From Rugalucina vietnamica (Eukaryota; Mollusca; Bivalvia; Lucinida; Lucinidae), in contig OZ024880.1 of NCBI GenBank assembly GCA_964017185.1, forward strand, positions 40,762,329 to 40,826,328: a DNA stretch of 64,000 nucleotides. Direction: 5' to 3'. The notes under the pieces were generated by a model that saw nothing but the letters and a program-made list of their open reading frames with translations, did no database searches and was not told the DNA's origin. Below, in pieces: positions 5,114 to 60,281 of the stretch (within the stretch, counting starts at the first letter, position 1; each line of letters opens with the position of its first letter). The translations under genes and the position numbers were made by a program.

Positions 5114-7004
5114 AAGAACTGAAACAAATTACAGCCATCACAGTACACCGGAAAAAGCGATGTGGGAATGTTGTCATGCAAAAAGTAGTTTTCGTTTTAG
5201 AAATCTTGAAACCAGATATCAAGTATAAGTGACAAGGGATAGTCCATATTCTTATAACAATACCAATCACTATCAAAACGATGAACACTGAAATGGACCG
5301 GAGTTGTTTCGTCATTAGATATTTTATTCCATTTCATTTCATTTATATATTGATTTATTCATTTATTTATATATTTATTGTTTTTGTTTTTTGTTTTGTT
5401 TTGTTTTAATGATTGCCAAAAATAAAAAGTTTATTCATATGTTTTTTCATTTAAAAATTATTCAAGGGCACAAACAAATATATTTTTATTTATTTATTTT
5501 TCTTCTTATTTTATTTTTTTTCTGTTTTTGTCGGGACGTTACCTTCATTTCCTGGGACTTCTTACTCTGAAAATGACCACCTATGTAAAAAAAAAAAAAG
5601 GCTTATATGTAGATTAATTGACTAAACCATTTTTGCCGGACGAGCTCAGACGTTCTAAGCGGATTCATAGCTGAACTGTATAAATAATATTAATGTAAAA
5701 TAATATTTCTTTTAGTCAAGCCCGCTCAGAAAAGCATTAATATTTTATTCCTCACAAGATATTACGTAAAAAAAAAATTAAAACAATTCGAAAATAAAAT
5801 AAATAATATTTTCAAACTGCTATAACAGCTTCCCCTCAAATTCTCTCAAAGTAACCAATCTCATTTTTCTTCTTGTCAGAAAACTCATTTCTTACACAAA
5901 CTGGTTTTTCACTTCAGATTCATCCGCGCAACAATATTGTTCATTTCGACAGACAAGTAGAGCGAAAGAAAAACACATTTATTATTCGCAGTATTATAAT
6001 ATCGTTTGAGCGACGAAGTTCTCTAATGTTAATGTTCGACCACACGCGTTTATTGTCCGGTGTCACACCGAGATTTTTAGTCATGTTCAATTTAGTAAAA
6101 AAATAAGTTCATATACATATATGTATACTAGTATGTAGTTGTATATTTTGGAGTACAATTATTAATTTATCTAAATATAATTATTGTTAAGATAAAGATT
6201 AACAAATTGCAGCACCCAAACCCATGCCTAATGAAATACTAATGACGGCTGATAAATATTAAATAGAATAGAAATATACAACATCATTTCGCGTAAAAGT
6301 AAATTGATAATTAATCACTAAACAGACATAACATTCCTACACGTATCTAAATTTTCGTTTTGAAATGAATGCAGAAATAAACAAATATAAAACATAAAAG
6401 ACTTTCTAAAACATATCCTTTCGCCTAACTCTGGCATTAAAGCATAACAGACACAAAGGAGTAATATATTCATTTGCGCGTTGTATTATGGACAGTAATA
6501 CGTTGGACTAGAGACTATTTATCATCATTAGAAGTCAACTCGGGTTTCCAGTATCACGTATAAACAAACATAAATTCATTCTCTGCTGAAAGACTATTTA
6601 CGATAACAACAATAATGCTTGTATATTATTTAGGCATTGACGGCTTGAGTTCAGCCCTTGTAAAGATCGGTGACATATCACTGAGATAGCTACTAACAGT
6701 GGCGACTCGTATTAGGCCCGCCCAAACAAGGCTTTTGATCGAGGTCTATCGCGTCTATGTATATGTTTGTCGATTACAAAAATGAACAAATGCATGTAAC
6801 TTTTCCATCCTCAGAAGTTGTTTATTTTTCATCACGATTGCTAATTTGGGTTTGGGCTACTGTTGTCAGGAAGGATTTATGCTTTCACGAAAAAAAATGG
6901 GATGCATTTTGAGGCATTTAGATAAGAAAAATAAAAACATTGAACTGGTCTGCAGAAATATTGATATGGAACAATAGTGAGAAATAAATGAGAGAAAACA
7001 CATA

Positions 7005-25244: not shown

Positions 25245-25335
25245 TTCAAGGGTGGTCGGGTGGGAATATGGGTCCTGCCCGTTGTAGTCGTCAGAAATAG
25301 ACGGGGATGATTGTGCCTCCAGGGAAAGATAATAT
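25245..25335 (+). repeat. REP-2 head fragment
   Basis: 'gtgggaatatgggtcctgcc' to 'gcctccagggaaag' only. Confidence 0.5.
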
Positions 25336-25337
25336 TT

Positions 25338-26216
25338 TTGGATGGTGGCGTTCCTCGCCGTGCTTCTTGTGGCTTGTGGTGTATGCGTTTCGCAACTTAT
25401 TAGGTTTGCCAGAGTCTGCGGTCGTGTGGCGGGCTTCGGCGCGCGAGGTGGGTGTTTAACAGCCAAACTTCTCCAGCTGGGCTATCGGTGTCCTGGGCTT
25501 CGGGAGGCGTTTTCTGGGTTTATAGCGGACGCTGTGGTTTGATTTCCAAATTAAGTGTTGCGCTTTTACGTGAGAGCCTTTCGGAACCAGAGTTTTATGG
25601 TGACTTGGTTTACAAATTAAGAAACATATAGGACGGATCAGTTCAGAGGGGTCGTAACACACAAGTTGTGGATGTGTGGGTTGTGGCTTGAGTTTTATTC
25701 GGCGTTCTGCGCGCTTGGCTTTTGACCCAATCATGGTTGGTGGCTGTGCTGCCGTCTTTGGTTGCGCAGCGGTGGGTCGGGCGTCGAGCTCTGTGGTGGC
25801 CCCGGCATGGGGCTGTTCGTTTTGGTTGGTTGGGGCCAGGGCTTCTTGTCTGTTGCTTGGCCCGTCGGGGTTCAGCTGGTGTTTTTCTTTTGTTCTGGGT
25901 TTCAGTAAGTTATTCGGCGCCCAGGGATCTCCATCGTCGGGCAGCTTGCTGAATCTGTTTAGTCCTCGTTTTTGATTCATCAGGGTTGTTACAATTTATT
26001 TTGGATGATTCATTTACTAGTTAGAGATTCACCACCGAAAAAGTAACTAAATGTTTTGAACCACTGCGGAAGATGAGAGTGAGGTAAGGCGCCTGTGAAA
26101 CCGGTTTAAGTCCCCCAGTATTTGTATATTACTGACCGTTCCAATGCGATATTTCTGATGTGGTTCCATTTGTTTTATGTTTTGGGATCGAATTTGTGTA
26201 CTGTTTGAACCTTATC
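25338..26216 (+). mobile_element. PLE-A copy with A-to-G hypermutated segments
   Basis: Plus-strand PLE copy starting at the RT region encoding DGDVPRRASYG in intact copies and running through the RT C-terminus into the tail, cut at 26216 before the tail end. Compared by eye with the reverse complements of 41.7-42.2 kb and 58.4-58.9 kb, segments 25347-25545 and about 25645-25850 have most adenines replaced by G, with few T-to-C changes. The intervening 25546-25640 and everything after about 25900 look normal. The RT stop TAA is altered to TGG, which is why a 99-residue ORF runs on into the tail. It is non-functional (frameshifts, stops). Confidence 0.85.
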
Positions 26217-26862
26217 CAACTAGTCAATGAATCATCAAGGACAAACAAATAAATCAAGAAAACCATCATGATGAAGCAAAAACGAGAACTCACAGATTTC
26301 GGTAAGCTGCCCGACGATGGAGATCCCTATGCGCCAGATACTGAAAATCCGGAGCAAACGAAAAACACCAGTTGAACCCCGGTGGGCCATGCAACAGACA
26401 AGAAGGTCCGGTCCCAACCAACTAAAATGAATAGCTTTATGTCGGGGCCATCACAGAGTATGACGCCAGACCCATCGGCGTGCAATTAAAGAAGGCAGCA
26501 TAGTTATCAACCATGATTGGGTAAAAAACTAAGCATGTAGATTAAGGTTACATCCTATACACCTGTAATGTGTTATGATTTTTCTGAACTGAAAATTAAA
26601 CTCATTCTTTCTTATAAGTTTCTTAAATTTGTATACCAAGTCACCATAAAATTCTGGTTCCGAAAGGCCCTCACGTAAAAGCGTCTTAAACCCAACACTA
26701 AATTTGGAAATCAATTCATAGTGTCTACGATAAAATTTAGAAAATGTGTTTCGAAGTTAAGGATCCCTGCTGGAAGTTTTGAGCGTTGAAGTCCCTAACA
26801 TGATTTCAGAAATAAGATGCGAAATGTATACACCATAAGAAGCACAGCGAGGAACTGGTTTG
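26217..26862 (-). mobile_element. PLE-A copy, minus orientation, abutting the hypermutated copy
   Basis: Directly follows the plus copy in inverted orientation. It contains the RT C-terminal segment (recognisable as SVGFKTLLREGLSEPEFYG on the minus strand, 26529-26714) and part of the tail, but lacks the terminal ~400 bp of tail. Its adenines are not depleted. Ends near 26862 in the region encoding the segment around SYGVYIS. Confidence 0.8.
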
Positions 26863-40936: not shown

Positions 40937-41071
40937 TTTATTTCTCTCAAACTGTATAATACAATACATGAGGTATTAAACACTGATCAAATAATATACG
41001 GTGAATGAAATGAAATGATAAAGGTGCGTGCACAGTTTACAGGCACTAAAATTTACTTAGAATATAGTAAA

Positions 41072-43093
41072 TGAAAAGGTACAAGTAGGCAAAGATCAGG
41101 AAAAGGCGCAATCAGAAAAAGATTCCCACTCCAAAAACCGAGGTGGGAAAAAACCAAACTAACAATCAGGTACTTATACCATGAAACATATCGTAAGCCG
41201 AATGAGCAGCTATTTTCCCAATAGGTGGCCACTCAGTTACCTTAACTTAACTAAAAATATGAAAACATACATAAGGCGCCAACAGCACAAAAATTTTTTA
41301 AACACCAAGACATAAAACAAAAAGAACCACTACAGAAGTATCGACTTGGAACGATCAGTAACACAAAGTTACTGGCGGGCTTAAACCGGTTTTACAGGTA
41401 CCTAACCTCACCCTCAGCTTCTGCAGTGGTTCACAACATTTAGTGAGTTCTTCGGTCCTCGTGGTGAATCTCTAACTAGTCAATGAATCATCAAGAACAA
41501 ACAAATAAATCATGATAAACATCCTGATGAATCAAAAACCAGGACTCACAGATTGAGTAAGCTGCCCGACGATGGAGATCCCTGGGCGCCGAATAACCTA
41601 CTAACTCCGGAGCAAAAGAAAAACACCAGTTGGACCCCGGTGGGCCAAGCAACAGACAAGAAGCTCCGGCCCCAACCAACTAAAATGAATAGCTTTAAGT
41701 CGGGGCCATCATAGAGTCTGACGCCCGACCCACCGGCGTGCAATTAAAGAAGGCAGCATAGTTATCAACCATGATTGGGTTAAAAACTAAGCATGCAGAC
41801 TGTCGCATAACATTCAAGTTATAACCTATACGTCTGTAACGTGTTATGATTTTTCTGAACTGAAAAGAAAAATCATTTATTCCTTTAAGTTTCTTTAATT
41901 TGTAAACCAAGTCACCATAAAATTCAGGTTCCGAAAGGCCCTCATTTAAAAGTGTCTTTAACCCAACATTATATTTGGAAATCAATTCATAGTGTCTACG
42001 ATAAAATTTAGAAAAGGTTTTTCGAAGTTTATGATACCGATAGCCCTGTTGGAGAAGTTTTGCCGTTAAACATTTATTTCGAGCGTTGAAGTCTGTAACA
42101 TGATTGCAGACTCTAGCAAACCTAATAAGTTGCGAAATGTATACACCATAAGAAGCACGACGAGGAACGTCACCATCCAAAAAAGGAAAATTTAGTATAT
42201 CAAAATCAAAGTCATCGCGCTTATCATAAATTTTAGAAGAAACAAATCCATTTGCAACAGAAAGATGTAGATCTAAAAAGGGGGCTTCGGTATCTGAGAT
42301 ATTAGCTTTGTTCAACTGAAGTTCAGGTGGATAAATTTGATTGACCATACCTTCAAAATAAGGGTTGTCAATGTTCAAAAGGTCATCGAGGTACCTAGAT
42401 GTGGAATTAAAAGCCTCGATAACATCAGCTTGATTATCATGGTTAAGAGAATCCATGAAATCTCTTTCGTAGCAATATAAAAATAAATCAGCTACGAGAG
42501 GTGCGCAATTTGTACCCATCGGAATTCCAACAATTTGTCTGTATAACTTGGTCCCAAATCTAATATAAATATTATCGAGGAGATAGGATAAGGCGTCGCA
42601 CACATTCTGACATGACCAAAGTGTATACCGACTTTGGTCAGAGGAAGTGAAAAAAGCCTTTCTGTCATTACATGCCAAATAAAGTGAACCATAGTTTTTT
42701 AATGCCCTTTTGAAGGTCCACTCTATCAAATCCAGAAGTTTTTCTTTAATTAGATTATGTGGTAATGTTGTATACAGAGTAGAAAAATCATATGTGGACA
42801 AGCTTGTCGCACGGAACCCTCTACACTTCAATTTACTGAGCACCTCACCAGAATTTTTTATTGACCAAAACCAATTTTTATTTGAAGTTTCATACACTGT
42901 CTCACAGTATCTTATAACATGAGATTTGATAGCAGTAAGACAAGAAGTTAATAATTTAGAAAGTTCAGTGGTAGTACAAGAGCTAGAATTTGCAATAAAT
43001 CTAGCTTTGTATGGTCTTTTGTGAAGCTTAGGTAACCAATACATCGTAGGAAGTTTGTCTTGGCCTTCATTGACACAAACAGAAAACTTAACA
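41072..43093 (-). mobile_element. PLE-A copy 1, ~2.0 kb, inserted at the end of LINE ORF2
   Basis: Complete tail at the left (plus-strand 'aaaaggtacaagtaggcaaa') and RT coding sequence to the right, ending where identity with copy 2 stops ('gaaaacttaaca', 43093). Of the RT it keeps everything from just before the 'LPTMYWLPKLHK' segment to the stop. LINE DNA lies on both sides: 3' UTR at 40908-41071, ORF2 from 43094. No target duplication is evident, so a small target deletion may have occurred. Confidence 0.85.
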
Positions 43094-46000
43094 TTATTTA
43101 ACATATTGAACCTACTTAATTGCTTCAATAGTTTTAACTTTTTAACAGACATTAATTTTTCAAATTTAATTATATTAATATGGCGTTGATAATACTTAGG
43201 TAAGTAAATTGATCTAGTATCATTAAAGAAATCGCATTCAAACAGGTAGTGAAATTCATCGCCTACAACATTTCTAGTGCACAGAGTACAGACTCTTAAA
43301 CGTCTGTTAATATCATCCCAGCGTCCCCTTTCGATAGGTAGTCTATGGTTCGCTGTACGAAATCTAGCAATTGGTATATAGAAATTTGGTTGAAGTTCAG
43401 TTAAATAAAACTCTGTTTTAAATTCTGTCTTGAATATTCTATAGTTACTGCATTTTGAGCTTTCAAAGACGGTTGTGTGCCACACCTGGACGTACTGCAT
43501 TTGTAGACGCTCCTGAACTTCTTTACAAAGCCAATTTACATCGTTAACAACATTACTTAACCAAATATAATTTAGTCCAACATCTTGTAAAATCTTTTGT
43601 ATACACAAAATCCATTTACATGAGTGAATATTATTTCTATGCAAATATAACAGTAATAGATACATTTTAAATGATAGTTTGCTATTCTTGCCAGTTAAAA
43701 TCTTTGCCCAGAATTTTACCATTCTTACTTTCACTTGTATAGACAAAGGAAAACGACCAAATTCTCCATAAACCATGACCAGTGGAGTATTACTTTTCAT
43801 TTTTAATATGACGCGCAAAAAGTCGAGATGAATTTTTTCTAGTGGTTGTAATATTTCGAAACCAGTTACTTCGCTGCCATATAAAAGTATGGGCACAATT
43901 GTTTGATCAAAGAGTTTCATCTGGCAATCAACTGGTAAGTGGAGATTGACAATTCGCTTTCGTAGAAGATGCATGGATTTATTTGCAAGTTTGGATACAT
44001 TTTTGATATGTTGCACAAAGCGTCCGTTTTTAGTGAAAAGCACTCCGAGATATTTAAATTCTTTAACGATTTCAATTTCTTCATCGTCAAATTTGAATGA
44101 AAAATGTTGATTTCCAATGCTACCGAATATAATAATCTTCGTTTTGCTGATATTTATTTTCAATTTCCACTTTTTACAATATTCATTAAATGCTTTCAAT
44201 ATGTTTTGGAACTCCTTAGCATTATCGCTAAGAATTATTGTGTCATCTGCGTATAGTAATAAGAAAAGGATAATAAAGATAGTAAATTCGTCATTCTGTA
44301 TACCAATTTCGATTCCTTTGCAGCCTGTTGTGTTCATATAATTTTCGAGGTCGTTTAAATAAATTGCAAATAATAAGGGTGACAGGTTTTCTCCCTGCCG
44401 GACGCCTTTGTCGCATGTAAAATAACCTGACGAGTTTCCGTTAATAGTTATGCAAGACTTTATTTCGCTATACATATTTCTTATAATGTTAAAGATTTTG
44501 CCTTCTATTCCATGTTTTAATATTTTTTGCCAAAGACCAACTCTCCATATGTTATCGAAAGCCTTCGTAAAATCTACAAAACAACAAAATAAATTTTGTT
44601 TCTTACTTTTATAGTATTCAATTAAACTATATAATGTCATAATGTTATCGACGGTCGAGTATTCTTTTCGGAAGCCACTCTGCGTTTCATTTAAAATTCT
44701 GTTGTCTTCTAAAAAGTTTGTTAATCTAGTGTTTATGATAGAGGTAAAAAGTTTACCAATACAGCTTAATAGTGTGATTGGTCGATAATTAGCTGGTTCG
44801 TTTTTACTGCCTTTATTTATATATATTGGTATTATATTGCCTTTGACCCAATCGCTAGGGATTATTCCATTTTGTAAAATCAAATTAAATATTTTTCTAT
44901 ATATAGGCACAAATATGTGTTTAGTAGAGATTATATATTCGTTTAAGATATCGTCGACACCACTTGATTTATTAAGTTTAAGTGATTTAATTGCCGTGTT
45001 AATTTCCTTATCATGTATAGGGTCGTTAAGTGCGTCATTTGATAGGCGGAATGCTTCGTTATATTCCGGATTTGGCGTTTCTATTAATATTTCCGGTGTA
45101 CGTTCTTGTTCGGCTAAGGGGACATCATTTGAGTTTAGTGACTTAAAATACTCAAACATATCATTCAAGGATATTGGTATTGTTTCATGCTTTTTTGTTA
45201 AGCTATTTATCATTTTCCAGTATTCTTTCGGCTTTTCAGTCCTGAGTTTTCGAATTTTTTTCTGTAAACCAACAATAAATTTAGCATGGTACTTTTTATT
45301 TATCGCTTTGTAGCGTTTAGAAGCATTTTTTAATGTTCGTAAGGAATAATCACTTTTTTGAATCGAGTGTATCTTCCTAGCAATATGAAACTTTTTCCTT
45401 GCTTTTTGACACTGCAGGCCAAACCAAGGTTTTGGGTTTTTAACTTTCTTGGATACGACTGTATACTTTTTAAAAGATAGTTTTACAGTTTTATTAAATA
45501 TATTTTTTACGTAATTTGCAAAAAAGTCTATTTGATTTTCGTTTAATGGAATATTGTTCGAATTGTCTAATAGTAAATTTAGATCATTAACCATCTTTGA
45601 GTCAATATTATTAATAAAAGACTCCTTTTTGGTTGGTTCCCATTTTTTATATGTAGCGTGAACTGATGGATTATGTCTAGTGTTTTGCGATGCAATAATA
45701 CTGAAAGAAATTGCACAGTGCACATCGGAAAACAATGGTGAATAATCATGAACATAAAAATTATTTACATAAAGTAATCCATCTAAATTGCATATCAAAT
45801 AATCTATAACACTTCCCTTTATGCATGTAGGGGCACCTGTCAAATCGCCATTGATTCGACCATTACAAATATACAGGTTATTATTGCGGCATAATTGTAG
45901 TAATTTGTTGCTAAAATTATTCCTAACGGTATCTTGTGACATTCTTGAGATTGGAATATTGTGCATTTGCAGCTCATTGCCGTTATTTAAGTAATTTAAT

Positions 46001-46512
46001 ACGTCATCGTCAATACCATAGTGTTGTGAAGTTACACGGTCTACAACGTAATCGGTATATTCGGGAGTGGTGCCCGTACGTGCATTAAGGTCTCCCATGA
46101 TATAAAAATGTTTACAACTGTTAATGTGGGGTAGTAATACTGTTTCAATTTCCGTAAAACTGTCATTATCACTATAGTTAGACCCGTCTGGCGGTATATA
46201 GGCAAATGCTATACATGTGTCTTTAATCGTAACTGGCGCTAAGCATGATATTTTAATAAGCATCAAAAATTCTGAATCGATTTCGATTAAATCTATGTAA
46301 GGGAGAATGTCATTTTTTACAAAAATTCCTATGCCACCAGAACGTCTGATAAATTGTTTCCTGTGCTTAGGGAAATATGTGTAATTCGGAAATGTTATCA
46401 CATCATCTTCACACGTCTTTGTTTCTGCTAAGCCTAAAATGTCACATGAATACAAGTCGGGTAGCGTTAGTTTGGATCTTAAGCCACAGACGTTCAAAAA
46501 CGAAATATTCAA
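41695..46512 (-). CDS. LINE ORF2 (endonuclease + RT) fused in frame to a PLE reverse transcriptase
   Basis: Open frame of 1605 codons. Residues 1-270 form an APE-type endonuclease: N7, E30 in LAETKT, D141/N143 in GDLNAR, D237 in VIDYLI, and D263/H265 in SDVH. Residues ~500-830 are the LINE RT: motif A FVDFTKAFD (D647), motif B GVRQGENLSPLLF (from 703), catalytic YADD (754-757). A Cys-rich CxxC...H...C motif lies at ~1075-1093. At residue 1140 the LINE stops and PLE RT begins: PKLHKRPYKARFIA (1161-), motif A YDFSTLYTTLP (1241-), motif B GIPMGTNCAPL (1329-), catalytic YLDD (1374-1377). The PLE half lacks the RT N-terminus present in copy 2. The join looks accidental: the displaced LINE 3' flank has a stop a few codons in. 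The LINE half looks intact and might still be active, but ORF1 is broken. Confidence 0.88.
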   Translation of the reverse strand: MNISFLNVCGLRSKLTLPDLYSCDILGLAETKTCEDDVITFPNYTYFPKHRKQFIRRSGGIGIFVKNDILPYIDLIEIDSEFLMLIKISCLAPVTIKDTCIAFAYIPPDGSNYSDNDSFTEIETVLLPHINSCKHFYIMGDLNARTGTTPEYTDYVVDRVTSQHYGIDDDVLNYLNNGNELQMHNIPISRMSQDTVRNNFSNKLLQLCRNNNLYICNGRINGDLTGAPTCIKGSVIDYLICNLDGLLYVNNFYVHDYSPLFSDVHCAISFSIIASQNTRHNPSVHATYKKWEPTKKESFINNIDSKMVNDLNLLLDNSNNIPLNENQIDFFANYVKNIFNKTVKLSFKKYTVVSKKVKNPKPWFGLQCQKARKKFHIARKIHSIQKSDYSLRTLKNASKRYKAINKKYHAKFIVGLQKKIRKLRTEKPKEYWKMINSLTKKHETIPISLNDMFEYFKSLNSNDVPLAEQERTPEILIETPNPEYNEAFRLSNDALNDPIHDKEINTAIKSLKLNKSSGVDDILNEYIISTKHIFVPIYRKIFNLILQNGIIPSDWVKGNIIPIYINKGSKNEPANYRPITLLSCIGKLFTSIINTRLTNFLEDNRILNETQSGFRKEYSTVDNIMTLYSLIEYYKSKKQNLFCCFVDFTKAFDNIWRVGLWQKILKHGIEGKIFNIIRNMYSEIKSCITINGNSSGYFTCDKGVRQGENLSPLLFAIYLNDLENYMNTTGCKGIEIGIQNDEFTIFIILFLLLYADDTIILSDNAKEFQNILKAFNEYCKKWKLKINISKTKIIIFGSIGNQHFSFKFDDEEIEIVKEFKYLGVLFTKNGRFVQHIKNVSKLANKSMHLLRKRIVNLHLPVDCQMKLFDQTIVPILLYGSEVTGFEILQPLEKIHLDFLRVILKMKSNTPLVMVYGEFGRFPLSIQVKVRMVKFWAKILTGKNSKLSFKMYLLLLYLHRNNIHSCKWILCIQKILQDVGLNYIWLSNVVNDVNWLCKEVQERLQMQYVQVWHTTVFESSKCSNYRIFKTEFKTEFYLTELQPNFYIPIARFRTANHRLPIERGRWDDINRRLRVCTLCTRNVVGDEFHYLFECDFFNDTRSIYLPKYYQRHINIIKFEKLMSVKKLKLLKQLSRFNMLNNVKFSVCVNEGQDKLPTMYWLPKLHKRPYKARFIANSSSCTTTELSKLLTSCLTAIKSHVIRYCETVYETSNKNWFWSIKNSGEVLSKLKCRGFRATSLSTYDFSTLYTTLPHNLIKEKLLDLIEWTFKRALKNYGSLYLACNDRKAFFTSSDQSRYTLWSCQNVCDALSYLLDNIYIRFGTKLYRQIVGIPMGTNCAPLVADLFLYCYERDFMDSLNHDNQADVIEAFNSTSRYLDDLLNIDNPYFEGMVNQIYPPELQLNKANISDTEAPFLDLHLSVANGFVSSKIYDKRDDFDFDILNFPFLDGDVPRRASYGVYISQLIRFARVCNHVTDFNARNKCLTAKLLQQGYRYHKLRKTFSKFYRRHYELISKYNVGLKTLLNEGLSEPEFYGDLVYKLKKLKGINDFSFQFRKIITRYRRIGYNLNVMRQSACLVFNPIMVDNYAAFFNCTPVGRASDSMMAPT

Positions 46513-50431: not shown

Positions 50432-51450
50432 GGGTCCCATAATAGATTGGCTGCTTGTGCCTCCAGGTAAAGCCTATACCTTAATGGATAAGTTCTTGCA
50501 AAGAAGATATGAGCCTACCCAGGAAAAGTCGTGTCGAGTAGTTAAACCATCAATACATAATAACTTAAGTATTTTACTTTTAAAACGCATTTCGCATGTC
50601 ATGACATCTTAATGTTGCGTAGAAAGGTACAAGTAGGCAAAGATCAGGAAAAGGCGCAATCAGAAAAAGATTCCCACTCCAAAAACCGAGGTGGGAAAAA
50701 ACCAAACTAACAATCAGGTACTTATACCATGAAACATATCGTAAGCCGAATGAGCAGCTATTTTCCCAATAGCTGGCCACTCAGTTACCTTAACTTAACT
50801 AAAAATATGAAAACATACATAAGGCGCCAACAGCACAAAAAATTTTAAACACCAAGACATAAAACAAAAAGAACCACTACAGAAGTATCGACTTGGAACG
50901 ATCAGTAACACAAAGTTACTGGCGGGCTTAAACCGGTTTTACAGGTACCTAACCTCACCCTCAGCTTCTGCAGTGGTTCACAACATTTAGTTAGTTCTTC
51001 GGTCCTCGTGGTGAATCTCTAACTAGTCAATGAATCATCAAGAACAAACAAATAAATCATGATAAACATCCTGATGAATCAATAACCAGGACTCACAGAT
51101 TGAGTAAGCTGCCCGACGATGGAGATCCCTGGGCGCCGAATAACCTACTAACTCCGGAGCAAAAGAAAAACACTAGTTGGACCCCGGTGGGCCAAGCAAC
51201 AGACAAGAAGCTCCGGCCCCAACCAACTAAAATGAATAGCTTTAAGTCGGGGCCATCATAGAGTCTGACGCCCGACCCACCGGCGTGCAATTAAAGAAGG
51301 CAGCATAGTTATCAACCATGATTGGGTTAAAAACTAAGCATGCAGACTGTCGCATAACATTCAAGAAACCGTATGAAATGGAGGTAACATCCCGACATGA
51401 CCATAACTATCGACTGGGACGTACATCAACAAATCAAGCATACAAATCAA
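50432..51450 (+). repeat. REP-2 copy split by a PLE copy
   Basis: 50432-50620 carries the REP-2 middle ('gtgcctccaggtaaagc', 'catgacatcttaatgttg'). 51369-51450 carries its end ('tgaaatggaggtaacatccc', 'gaccataactatcgactggg', CAAA-like tail). The break coincides with the PLE at 50626-51363. Confidence 0.75.
50626..51363 (-). mobile_element. PLE-A copy 3, ~740 bp, AGAAA duplication
   Basis: Complete tail plus the last ~40 RT codons (to VFNPIMVDNYAAFFN and upstream). Flanked by AGAAA at 50621-50625 and 51364-51368, a likely 5-bp target duplication, although the trailing A's could partly belong to the element. Very similar to copies 1 and 2. Confidence 0.85.
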
Positions 51451-57121: not shown

Positions 57122-57781
57122 TTAAAGTGTTTTGGCACCCTTATTTGATATGAACTTCAAATTGTAGAGTTTTCAAAAATATGAATTTTGATATAAAGTT
57201 GATAAAAATCGGTTGGGAAATAAGAATGTTATAGGCAATTTAACATGCAAAAAATGATTGTATGGGCGCCGCCATTTTGTTTGTTCGGTTAGTTTTCATA
57301 TTTTTATTAAAATCAAAATAAACATTGAACCCAATTAGAATAAATACTTCTATAAGCATGGGGGTCCACTAGTTATACATTCTGGAGAAAGATTTTTCAA
57401 AATCGCTTGAGAAATAGCGCAATAAGAGCAATTTGAAAATATTCAAAATGGCCGCCAGGAGTCTAATTTTGGTAATGCATGGAGTCTAAATGAAAACTGA
57501 AAAAATCAAATTAAATGAAATTTTCCCGAATATTTTCCTATCAAATTTTGATAGCTGTTTATTTATAGCAACAGGCAAGATTGTTAATCAAACTGGCACA
57601 CATATATGTTAAAGGAAGCCTTTAATTTTGATTTTATCCTATTTTCTTAACCTCAACTAGAAAACAAAATGGCGGCCATCCATATTTCATACTTAATTAC
57701 CCATAACTTTCTTATTAGACCACCGATTTTCATCAAATTTATATCAAAATGCTTTGTTTTGAAAGCTCTTGAATTTGAAAA

Positions 57782-60149
57782 GGTACAAGTAGGCAAAGAT
57801 CAGGAAAAGGCGCAATCAGAAAAAGATTCCCACTCCAAAAACCGAGGTGGGAAAAAACCAAACTAACAATCAGGTACTTATACCATGAAACATATCGTAA
57901 GCCGAATGAGCAGCTATTTTCCCAATAGGTGGCAACTCAGTTACCTTAACTTAACTAAAAATATGAAAACATACATAAGGCGCCAACAACACAAAAAATT
58001 TTAAACACCAAGACATAAAACAAAAAGAACCACTACAGAAGTATCGACTTGGAACGATCAGTGACACAAAGTTACTGGCGGGCTTAAACCGGTTTTACAG
58101 GTACCTAACCTCACCCTCAGCTTCTGCAGTGGTTCACAACATTTAGTTAGTTCTTCGGTCCTCGTGGTGAATCTCTAACTAGTCAATGAATCATCAAGAA
58201 CAAACAAATAAATCATGATAAACATCCTGATGAATCAAAAACCAGGACTCACAGATTGAGTAAGCTGCCCGACGATGGAGATCCCTGGGCGCCGAATAAC
58301 CTACTAACTCCGGAGCAAAAGAAAAACACCAGTTGGACCCCGGTGGGCCAAGCAACAGACAAGAAGCTCCGGCCCCAACCAACTAAAATGAATAGCTTTA
58401 AGTCGGGGCCATCATAGAGTCTGACGCCCGACCCACCGGCGTGCAATTAAAGAAGGCAGCATAGTTATCAACCATGATTGGGTTAAAAACTAAGCATGCA
58501 GACTGTCGCATAACATTCAAGTTATAACCTATACGTCTGTAACGTGATATGATTTTTCCGAACTGAAGAGAAAAATCATTTATTCCTTTAAGTTTCTTTA
58601 ATTTGTAAACCAAGTCACCATAAAATTCAGGTTCCGAAAGGCCCTCACTTAAAAGTGTCTTTAACCCAACATTATATTTGGAAATCAATTCATAGTGTCT
58701 ACGATAAAATTTAGAAAAGGTTTTTCGAAGTTTATGATACCGATAGCCCTGTTGGAGAAGTTTTGCCGTTAAACATTTATTTCGAGCGTTGAAGTCTGTA
58801 ACATGATTGCAGACTCTAGCAAACCTAATAAGTTGCGAAATGTATACACCATAAGAAGCACGACGAGGAACGTCACCATCCAAAAAAGGAAAATTTACTA
58901 TATCAAAATCAAAGTCATCGCGCTTATCATAAATTTTAGAAGAAACAAATCCATTTGCAACAGAAAGATGTAGATCTAAAAAGGGGGCTTCGGTATCTGA
59001 GATATTAGCTTTGTTCAACTGAAGTTCAGGTGGATAAATTTGATTGACCATACCTTCAAAATAAGGGTTGTCAATGTTCAAAAGGTCATCGAGGTACCTA
59101 GATGTGGAATTAAAAGCCTCGATAACATCAGCTTGATTATCATGGTTAAGAGAATCCATGAAATCTCTTTCGTAGCAGTATAAAAATAAATCAGCTACGA
59201 GAGGTGCGCAATTTGTACCCATCGGAATTCCAACAATTTGTCTGTATAACTTGGTCCCAAATCTAATATAAATATTATCAAGGAGATAGGATAAGGCGTC
59301 GCACACATTCTGACATGACAAAGGGTATACCGACTTTGGTCAGAGGAAGTGAAAAAAGCCTTTCTGTCATTACATGCCAAATAAAGTGAACCATAGTTTT
59401 TTAATGCCCTTTTGAAGGTCCACTCTATCAAATCCAGAAGTTTTTCTTTAATTAGATTATGTGGTAATGTTGTATACAGAGTAGAAAAATCATATGTGGA
59501 CAAGCTTGTCGCACGGAACCCTCTACACTTCAATTTACTGAGCACCTCACCAGAATTTTTTATTGACCAAAACCAATTTTTATTTGAAGTTTCATACACT
59601 GTCTCACAGTATCTTATAACATGAGATTTGATAGCAGTAAGACAAGAAGTTAATAATTTAGAAAGTTCAGTGGTAGTACAAGAGCTAGAATTTGCAATAA
59701 ATCTAGCTTTGTATGGTCTTTTGTGAAGCTTAGGTAACCAATACATCGTAGGAAGTTTGTCTTGGCCTTCATTGACACAAACAGAAAACTTAACAGGTAA
59801 ATCGTTTAAGTGGGCATTTACTACAGACACCTCATCAGTATCTGTCTCCAGATAAGCCCTGGTACCATCAAGCTCCTGTTTTAAGGTGTTAACGTAGTGA
59901 AGTCTACAAACGACAACAACATTGTTTGCGGCTTTATCTGCCGGAACCAAGACATACTTTCTATGAAATTCTTGGATACCCTGCTTCAAATGCCTAAATG
60001 ACGATTTGGGTTTAGGAGGTAAAAGATTAGTATTTTGTGAATAAAACTTAATACGTTTATCCACGATAGTGAAGATACTTCTTTTCCATTCTTTAAGAGC
60101 ATTATCCTCAACACCCTCTCGTTTACACCATCGATTACCGAAATCATTA
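57782..60149 (-). mobile_element. PLE-A copy 2, ~2.4 kb, longest RT
   Basis: Complete tail (57782-58397) and the longest RT coding stretch in the window, 5'-truncated at about 60149 where FB-3 resumes. TTGAA at the left junction (57775-57779) and 'attgaag' at the right suggest a short target duplication. No GIY-YIG endonuclease reading frame lies between the RT stop and the tail end. Confidence 0.85.
58398..60145 (-). pseudogene. PLE reverse transcriptase, 5'-truncated, one frameshift
   Basis: Reads on the minus strand from about 60145 (WCKREG...KEWKRSIF region, no start codon retained) through the fingers motif YVLVPADKAANNVVVV, then PKLHKRPYKARF, motif A YDFSTLYTTLP, motif B GIPMGTNCAPL, catalytic YLDD and a C-terminal thumb-like region (YGVYISQLIRFARVC), stopping at 58398. 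A one-base deletion near 59319 ('catgacaaag' against 'catgaccaaag' in copy 1) splits it into 60064-59195 and 59321-58398. The ancestral enzyme copies PLE RNA into DNA. The PKLHK...PYK..F and MGTNCAPL spellings fit PLE-type RTs rather than LINE or LTR enzymes, but the PLE clade is not assigned. Confidence 0.8.
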
Positions 60150-60281
60150 AATCATTGAAGTACATATTAATTAAGGGTACCAAAACACTTTAATAAATAA
60201 ATAAATAGCGAAATGCGCGTGAAACTAATGTAAAATGTCCATGCTGTGGTTGTAGTGCTTCTGGAGTTCTTAGCATCAAAT

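Follow-up and report, generated by a model that had tools for sequence, protein, structure and literature searches.

A retrotransposon of the bivalve Rugalucina vietnamica, which its sequence places among the Naiad-type Penelope-like elements, carries clustered A-to-G (A>G) scars on its coding strand at nine loci on seven contigs among the loci compared, including one in the 64,000-nucleotide stretch analysed here (the window, C12:40762329-40826328 of the 1.09 Gb of genome searched). Very probably, ADAR repeatedly edited the sense RNA of the element while it was held in a sense-antisense duplex, and reverse transcription then carried the edits into the germline. The copies in the window and the parts of the hypermutated copy are as follows.

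25335..26215, plus strand: 5'-truncated, A>G-hypermutated copy of the putative Naiad-type Penelope-like element, with the C-terminus of the reverse transcriptase (RT) and part of the 3' UTR (comparison of repeat copies)
25346..25545, plus strand: first A>G island, 33 of 56 adenines changed, with a peak of 13 of 14 at 25416-25454 (segment counts)
25546..25640, plus strand: near-unedited gap separating the islands, A>G at 2 of 30 adenines (segment counts)
25641..25864, plus strand: second A>G island, 37 of 49 adenines changed in 25641-25850 (segment counts)
25951..26215, plus strand: distal tail, A>G at 3 of 56 adenines, ordinary decay without hypermutation (segment counts)
26215..26855, minus strand: unedited inverted copy of the same family, adjoining the hypermutated copy tail to tail; in the sense orientation, A>G 6/149 and T>C 7/227
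41070..43093, minus strand: unedited copy, of which 41074-42964 served as comparator; SECIS_1 at 41653-41720 (alignment)
50620..51365, minus strand: unedited 5'-truncated copy; SECIS_1 at 51200-51267 (alignment)
57778..60152, minus strand: unedited copy, of which 57778-59666 served as comparator; SECIS_1 at 58356-58423 (alignment)

The unedited state was taken as the majority base of each alignment column, counted where at least six rows covered the column and at least 60% agreed. Scored in this way, the hypermutated copy of the window shows A>G at 79 of 204 adenines and T>C at 9 of 301 thymines (p 4.7e-22), next to 13 G>A and 11 C>T changes; substitutions other than A>G number 76 in all. The first-pass annotation of this DNA had called T-to-C changes few, and the two types are indeed far from equally frequent. 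The changes are also unevenly placed, affecting 4 of 11 adenines at 25346-25415, 13 of 14 at 25416-25454, where they are accompanied by two transversions and by no other transition, and 16 of 31 at 25455-25545. Within the second island, 20 of 20 consecutive scored consensus adenines read G over 25740-25864, and the count at 25851-25950 is 4 of 12. The same annotation had given 13 of 14 adenines as G with two other changes at the peak, which was reproduced exactly, had placed further runs in 25347-25545 and about 25645-25850, which coincide with the two islands, and had described 25546-25640 and the distal tail as nearly normal, in line with the low counts listed above. It had also read the RT stop TAA as changed to TGG, and inspection by eye agrees that the TAA ending the reading frame reads TGG in the second island. 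The clustered coding-strand scar is confirmed as real, and chance is excluded as the source of the excess of A>G over T>C. Against the nearest subfamily, with a reference state defined by agreement of at least three of the four copies L024, L027, L028 and L029, the counts are 74 of 195 for A>G and 6 of 273 for T>C. Relatives that already carried these Gs while intact, which the annotation had raised as an objection to editing, did not emerge, as the 79 edited sites hold 2395 A, 83 G, 15 T, 6 C and 187 gaps across 34 unedited copies, with G in at least one of the 34 at 24 of the sites. Of 367 alignments between repeats inside the window, the top eight by asymmetry (ratios 5.8-7.5) each include the hypermutated copy, and the next row has a ratio of 3.9.

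The comparison set comprised 42 rows, each with 700 or more aligned bases; four rows belong to the window and the other 38 to 37 genomic loci. One unedited copy is counted twice because L030 and L040 overlap, and L004 and L005 were omitted because they are segmental duplicates of L003. At p<1e-3, eight of the 42 rows show an A>G excess and none a T>C excess. Seven of the eight are strong, with A>G/T>C counts of 135/2 in L006, 117/3 in L003, 79/9 in the window copy, 72/2 in L002, 37/1 in L039, 32/3 in L034 and 27/2 in L022, and the eighth, L009, is weak (13/2). Among 20 consecutive consensus adenines, the strong copies reach maxima of 13 to 20 A>G changes and the 35 others at most 7 (the value of L009), while T>C counts in the same scan stay at or below 4 in every one of the 42 rows. 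In L009, 6 of 13 adenines close to the 3' end of the element are changed within one bin of 100 columns that contains no further change, which may mark a short edited island. The window copy also served as query in a second search, which gave 40 scored matches (of 3968 first-look candidates) at 30 loci, 25 of them new, and two further strong copies, L065 (125/2) and L050 (130/15), were found among the new loci. The match C5:6937454-6938332 of the first search, made with the same query, and the ten of the 40 second-search matches that lacked loci were left out, one of these ten, C3:1348129, being L024. As an edited query enriches for edited copies, the fractions of hypermutated copies found here are not frequencies. 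The first-pass annotation had expected a genomic copy of this kind to be unusual; among the copies compared here, at least eight other insertions are strongly hypermutated with the same scar. The A>G excess always lies on the coding strand of the element. The clearest case is L006 (extended as L043), in which, compared with the intact copy L048 over 2.1 kb, 178 of 570 adenines read G beside 5 other substitutions. In the main comparison of copies, A>G changes and other substitutions number 37 and 3 in L039 and 72 and 10 in L002, and the older copies show 117 and 42 (L003) and 130 and 89 (L050).

The identity of the element rests on its homologues, since searches of the L048 frame against Pfam and NCBIfam, of two window fragments against Pfam, and of solved structures gave no significant match. 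In the homologues P0041, P0025 and P0055, a GIY-YIG domain above the curated cut-off precedes an RVT_1 domain below it (in P0041 at 625-827, E 2e-6), and in P0028 RVT_1 reaches 47 bits, above its cut-off. P0041 is 36% identical to the L048 frame over 931 amino acids, and the region of L048 aligned to the GIY-YIG domain of the homologues lies N-terminal. The element in L048 is about 4.5 kb long, with direct repeats of about 320 bases, 99% identical, at 1568-1885 and 5797-6116 (pseudo-LTRs), and encodes one frame of 1101 amino acids if three TGAs are read as selenocysteine. Each of these in-frame TGAs is aligned with a cysteine of P0041, and one falls in a CxC motif (SUDC/SCDC). SECIS_1 was detected in four window copies, at 1094-1161 on the plus strand and in the three minus-strand copies listed with it above, overlapping the frame end in the copy at 57778-60152, and the element thus looks like a selenoprotein retrotransposon. 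Craig et al. reportedly described, in 2021, Naiad elements with an N-terminal GIY-YIG, a CxC motif, a C-terminal RT, pseudo-LTRs and inverted insertions, and members from clams are said to be selenoproteins with TGA selenocysteine codons and SECIS. The present element resembles these in its GIY-YIG, CxC, RT, selenocysteine TGAs with SECIS, pseudo-LTRs and inverted insertions, and the hypermutated family is accordingly classified, by sequence likeness, as a Naiad-type Penelope-like element. To our knowledge, A>G hypermutated Naiad copies have not been reported. On the minus strand of window positions 41000-46500, a frame of 1601 amino acids joins a LINE-like endonuclease/RT ORF, recognized by eye, in frame to the RT portion of the Naiad element, probably through a nested or adjacent insertion.

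Scars of this kind could have been inherited rather than made anew if a subfamily already bearing the Gs had amplified, and one scar has in fact been copied. At C1 64.14-64.21 Mb, L003, L004 and L005 are three near-identical copies of one edited insertion with its flanks, about 35 kb apart on one contig and differing by 1-3 positions in 3.9 kb; either a recent segmental duplication took the scar along, or the assembly duplicated the segment. Some regions are also edited in several copies, and site sharing is slightly above expectation, with z above zero in most of 36 pairs. However, sharing remains near chance once local rates are considered (z 0 to 2.0 in the 21 pairs among seven copies, and -0.3 to 2.3 in the 15 pairs with L050 or L065), and neighbour preferences would be expected to raise it slightly. 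In a tree built with the edited sites masked, the edited copies are scattered next to different unedited ones, and their p-distance to the nearest unedited copy ranges from 0.004 (L006) to 0.10 (the window copy). The best non-self match to the window copy is 80% identical among the 40 matches scored, and the 40 scored matches (of 2278 first-look candidates) to 1441 bases of unedited L048, itself included, all show a rounded identity of 100%. Amplification of a G-bearing subfamily is therefore very improbable, and the near-chance site sharing, the scattered masked tree and the range of distances indicate that the scars are most likely separate events of different ages. The intact element is the unedited form, and the L048 family is very young and probably active.

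Clustered mismatches of a single type can also be systematic errors, and a G-to-A case was reported by Zaranek 2010 in passages of PMC2873906. A sequencing or assembly artefact is nevertheless hardly credible here, as the changes track the strand of the element and not that of the contig, the older copies bear other substitutions too, and the same scar recurs in the three segmental duplicates. Other repeats are likewise unaffected in the 210 kb examined, a small sample consisting mostly of the window and the surroundings of element copies, in which no other repeat family carries the scar. Within this control, the 584 non-element rows of 4416 reach a top A>G or T>C ratio of 3.9, with 9 changes; inside the element, a ratio of 4 is passed by four rows whose query is L008, L018 or L020.

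The bases flanking the edited sites point to the enzyme. In the islands of the nine copies pooled, the edited share by 5' neighbour is 217/334 (.65) for T, 190/313 (.61) for A, 120/213 (.56) for C and 110/244 (.45) for G, and the shortage of 5' G is significant by permutation within copies (p 1e-4, pooled). For the 3' neighbour, G is highest with 132/205 (.64) and A lowest with 155/308 (.50). The 5' neighbour order of ADARs is U=A>C>G, and the pooled order is ADAR-like. Depletion of G upstream of ADAR sites is also described in parts of PMC2873906. The depletion is moderate and absent in some single copies: in L006 the edited share after 5' C (14/35) is below that after 5' G (21/39), in L065 the share after 5' A (24/55) is below that after 5' G (21/45), and in the window copy 11 of 19 adenines after G are edited against 61 of 93 after other neighbours. 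The disfavouring of adenines after a G, which the first-pass annotation had seen in several retained adenines, holds in the pooled data at moderate strength but not in every copy, and its proposal of ADAR editing of retroelement RNA followed by reverse transcription is supported by the pooled neighbours and by the rarity of T>C. The genome encodes candidate enzymes, with 14 matches to A_deamin (PF02137) at four genomic places, all above the curated cut-off and the best at 220 bits, a count that does not separate ADAR from ADAD and ADAT1. The A_deamin domain is present in ADAD and ADAT1 proteins as well.

An element reverse transcriptase that places C opposite template A, through dNTP imbalance or a low fidelity at A like that of adenine-targeted diversity-generating retroelements, would require no deaminase. 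New insertions would then likewise carry changes confined to the coding strand, and a neighbour preference that is only moderate is compatible with it. Such misincorporation is improbable in view of the spectrum, density and context of the changes. In L006, A>C and A>T number 1 and 0 beside 135 A>G, both being nearly absent in young copies, whereas diversity-generating retroelements mutate A to any base; in addition, the density reaches 20 of 20 adenines, nearly clean stretches separate the islands, and the pooled neighbour order fits ADAR. Editing by APOBEC of LTR retrotransposons, which similarly leaves clustered deaminase scars in retroelements according to parts of PMC2873906, differs in producing G>A through cytidine deamination of cDNA, in contrast to the coding-strand A>G seen here. 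An APOBEC-type excess of G>A on the coding strand is absent in the seven strong copies of the 42 rows, where G>A counts are 0 in L006, L039 and L022, 3 in L002 and 4 in L034, these being the five youngest, and reach 7 in L003 and 13 in the window copy; every count falls far short of the A>G count of the same copy. Changes made at the DNA level, by GC-biased gene conversion or by deamination of dA in the DNA strand of an RNA:DNA hybrid, are also highly unlikely, even though ADARs are able to deaminate dA in hybrid model substrates (passages of PMC12925331). If first-strand cDNA were deaminated, the coding strand would show T>C, and none of the 42 rows has an excess of it. The bias of gene conversion is strand-symmetric, whereas A>G and T>C differ sharply here.

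Returning to the editing of RNA by ADAR, the restriction of the excess to adenines of the coding strand makes the sense RNA the likely target. Between 50% and two thirds of the adenines in islands (local rate of at least 0.3) are edited, and editing density of this order points to a long, near-perfect duplex. Intramolecular RNA structure was considered as the substrate and rejected, as predicted self-folding bears no relation to edited and unedited adenines in seven copies (seven tests, smallest p 0.052), and self-comparison of L048 and L044 revealed no inverted repeats. An intermolecular duplex is therefore likelier, and its partner would most simply be antisense element RNA. At three of six edited loci (L041, L045 and L046), and also in the window, the edited copy has an inverted element copy no more than 10 kb away; inverted neighbours occur beside unedited copies too (L023, L025 and L030/L040). 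Inverted pairs are common, as at the 26215 junction of the window and in L023, L025, L030/L040, L045 and L046, some being only a few bases apart. Insertion of an edited hairpin as a single unit would require a T>C excess in the neighbour at 26215-26855, whose T>C count is that given in the list above, and the inverted neighbour in L045 is likewise unedited, so that one-unit hairpin insertion is rejected at both loci. The 26 C>T differences of 26215-26855 relative to L002 reflect L002, which is itself edited, and not a scar in the neighbour.

We infer that sense RNA of the active Naiad-type element would be caught in a long duplex with antisense element RNA, which would probably arise by read-through from oppositely oriented copies. 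Host ADAR could then turn roughly half or more of the adenosines within duplexed stretches into inosine, before the element reverse transcriptase copies the edited sense RNA at a new site, reading I as G. Reverse transcription makes G a lasting replacement for inosine, and the expected outcome would be a heritable, clustered A>G scar on the coding strand only.

Clusters of A>G that affect near 50% of regional adenosines are known from the hypermutation of retroviruses ascribed to ADARs, as passages of PMC12925331 describe. The present case is similar in pattern and differs from ADAR-hypermutated viruses in concerning a Penelope-like retrotransposon, at nine loci of one animal genome and with scars of different ages. 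In molluscs, A>G editing of Malacoherpesviridae RNAs by ADAR1 is described in PMC6651903, with a neighbour preference and at places of overlapping transcription in opposite directions. That editing occurs in RNA of DNA viruses and is not heritable in the host genome. No report of A>G hypermutated genomic Penelope-like copies was found among the titles and abstract openings of the open literature, and reports may exist in subscription journals. The marks of ADAR are usually legible in RNA alone and lost with it, and here they are apparently preserved in genomic DNA, in nine independent insertions that span from nearly unmutated to about 10% diverged. On a broader reading, germline ADAR would repeatedly and heritably mutate an active Penelope-like retrotransposon, as the A>G equivalent of APOBEC editing, and each scar would record, as a datable fossil, sense-antisense duplex formation and editing in the germline; this reading appears about evenly poised. 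If it is true, copies made in the presence of antisense element RNA would enter the genome full of missense changes. Edited copies are also raw material diverged at once. If ADAR marks are indeed kept in genomic DNA, assembled genomes with active retroelements could be screened for earlier ADAR activity, each island marking a duplexed stretch, and the restriction of retrotransposition by ADAR through editing would become testable; for LINE-1, the inhibition reported for ADAR1 seems to be editing-independent, according to passages of PMC12925331.

Most of the first seven edited copies have a clean 3' end. Selection for retrotransposition was considered as the cause of this clean end and rejected, since 12 of 22 adenines near the 3' end are edited in L065 and 6 of 13 in L009.
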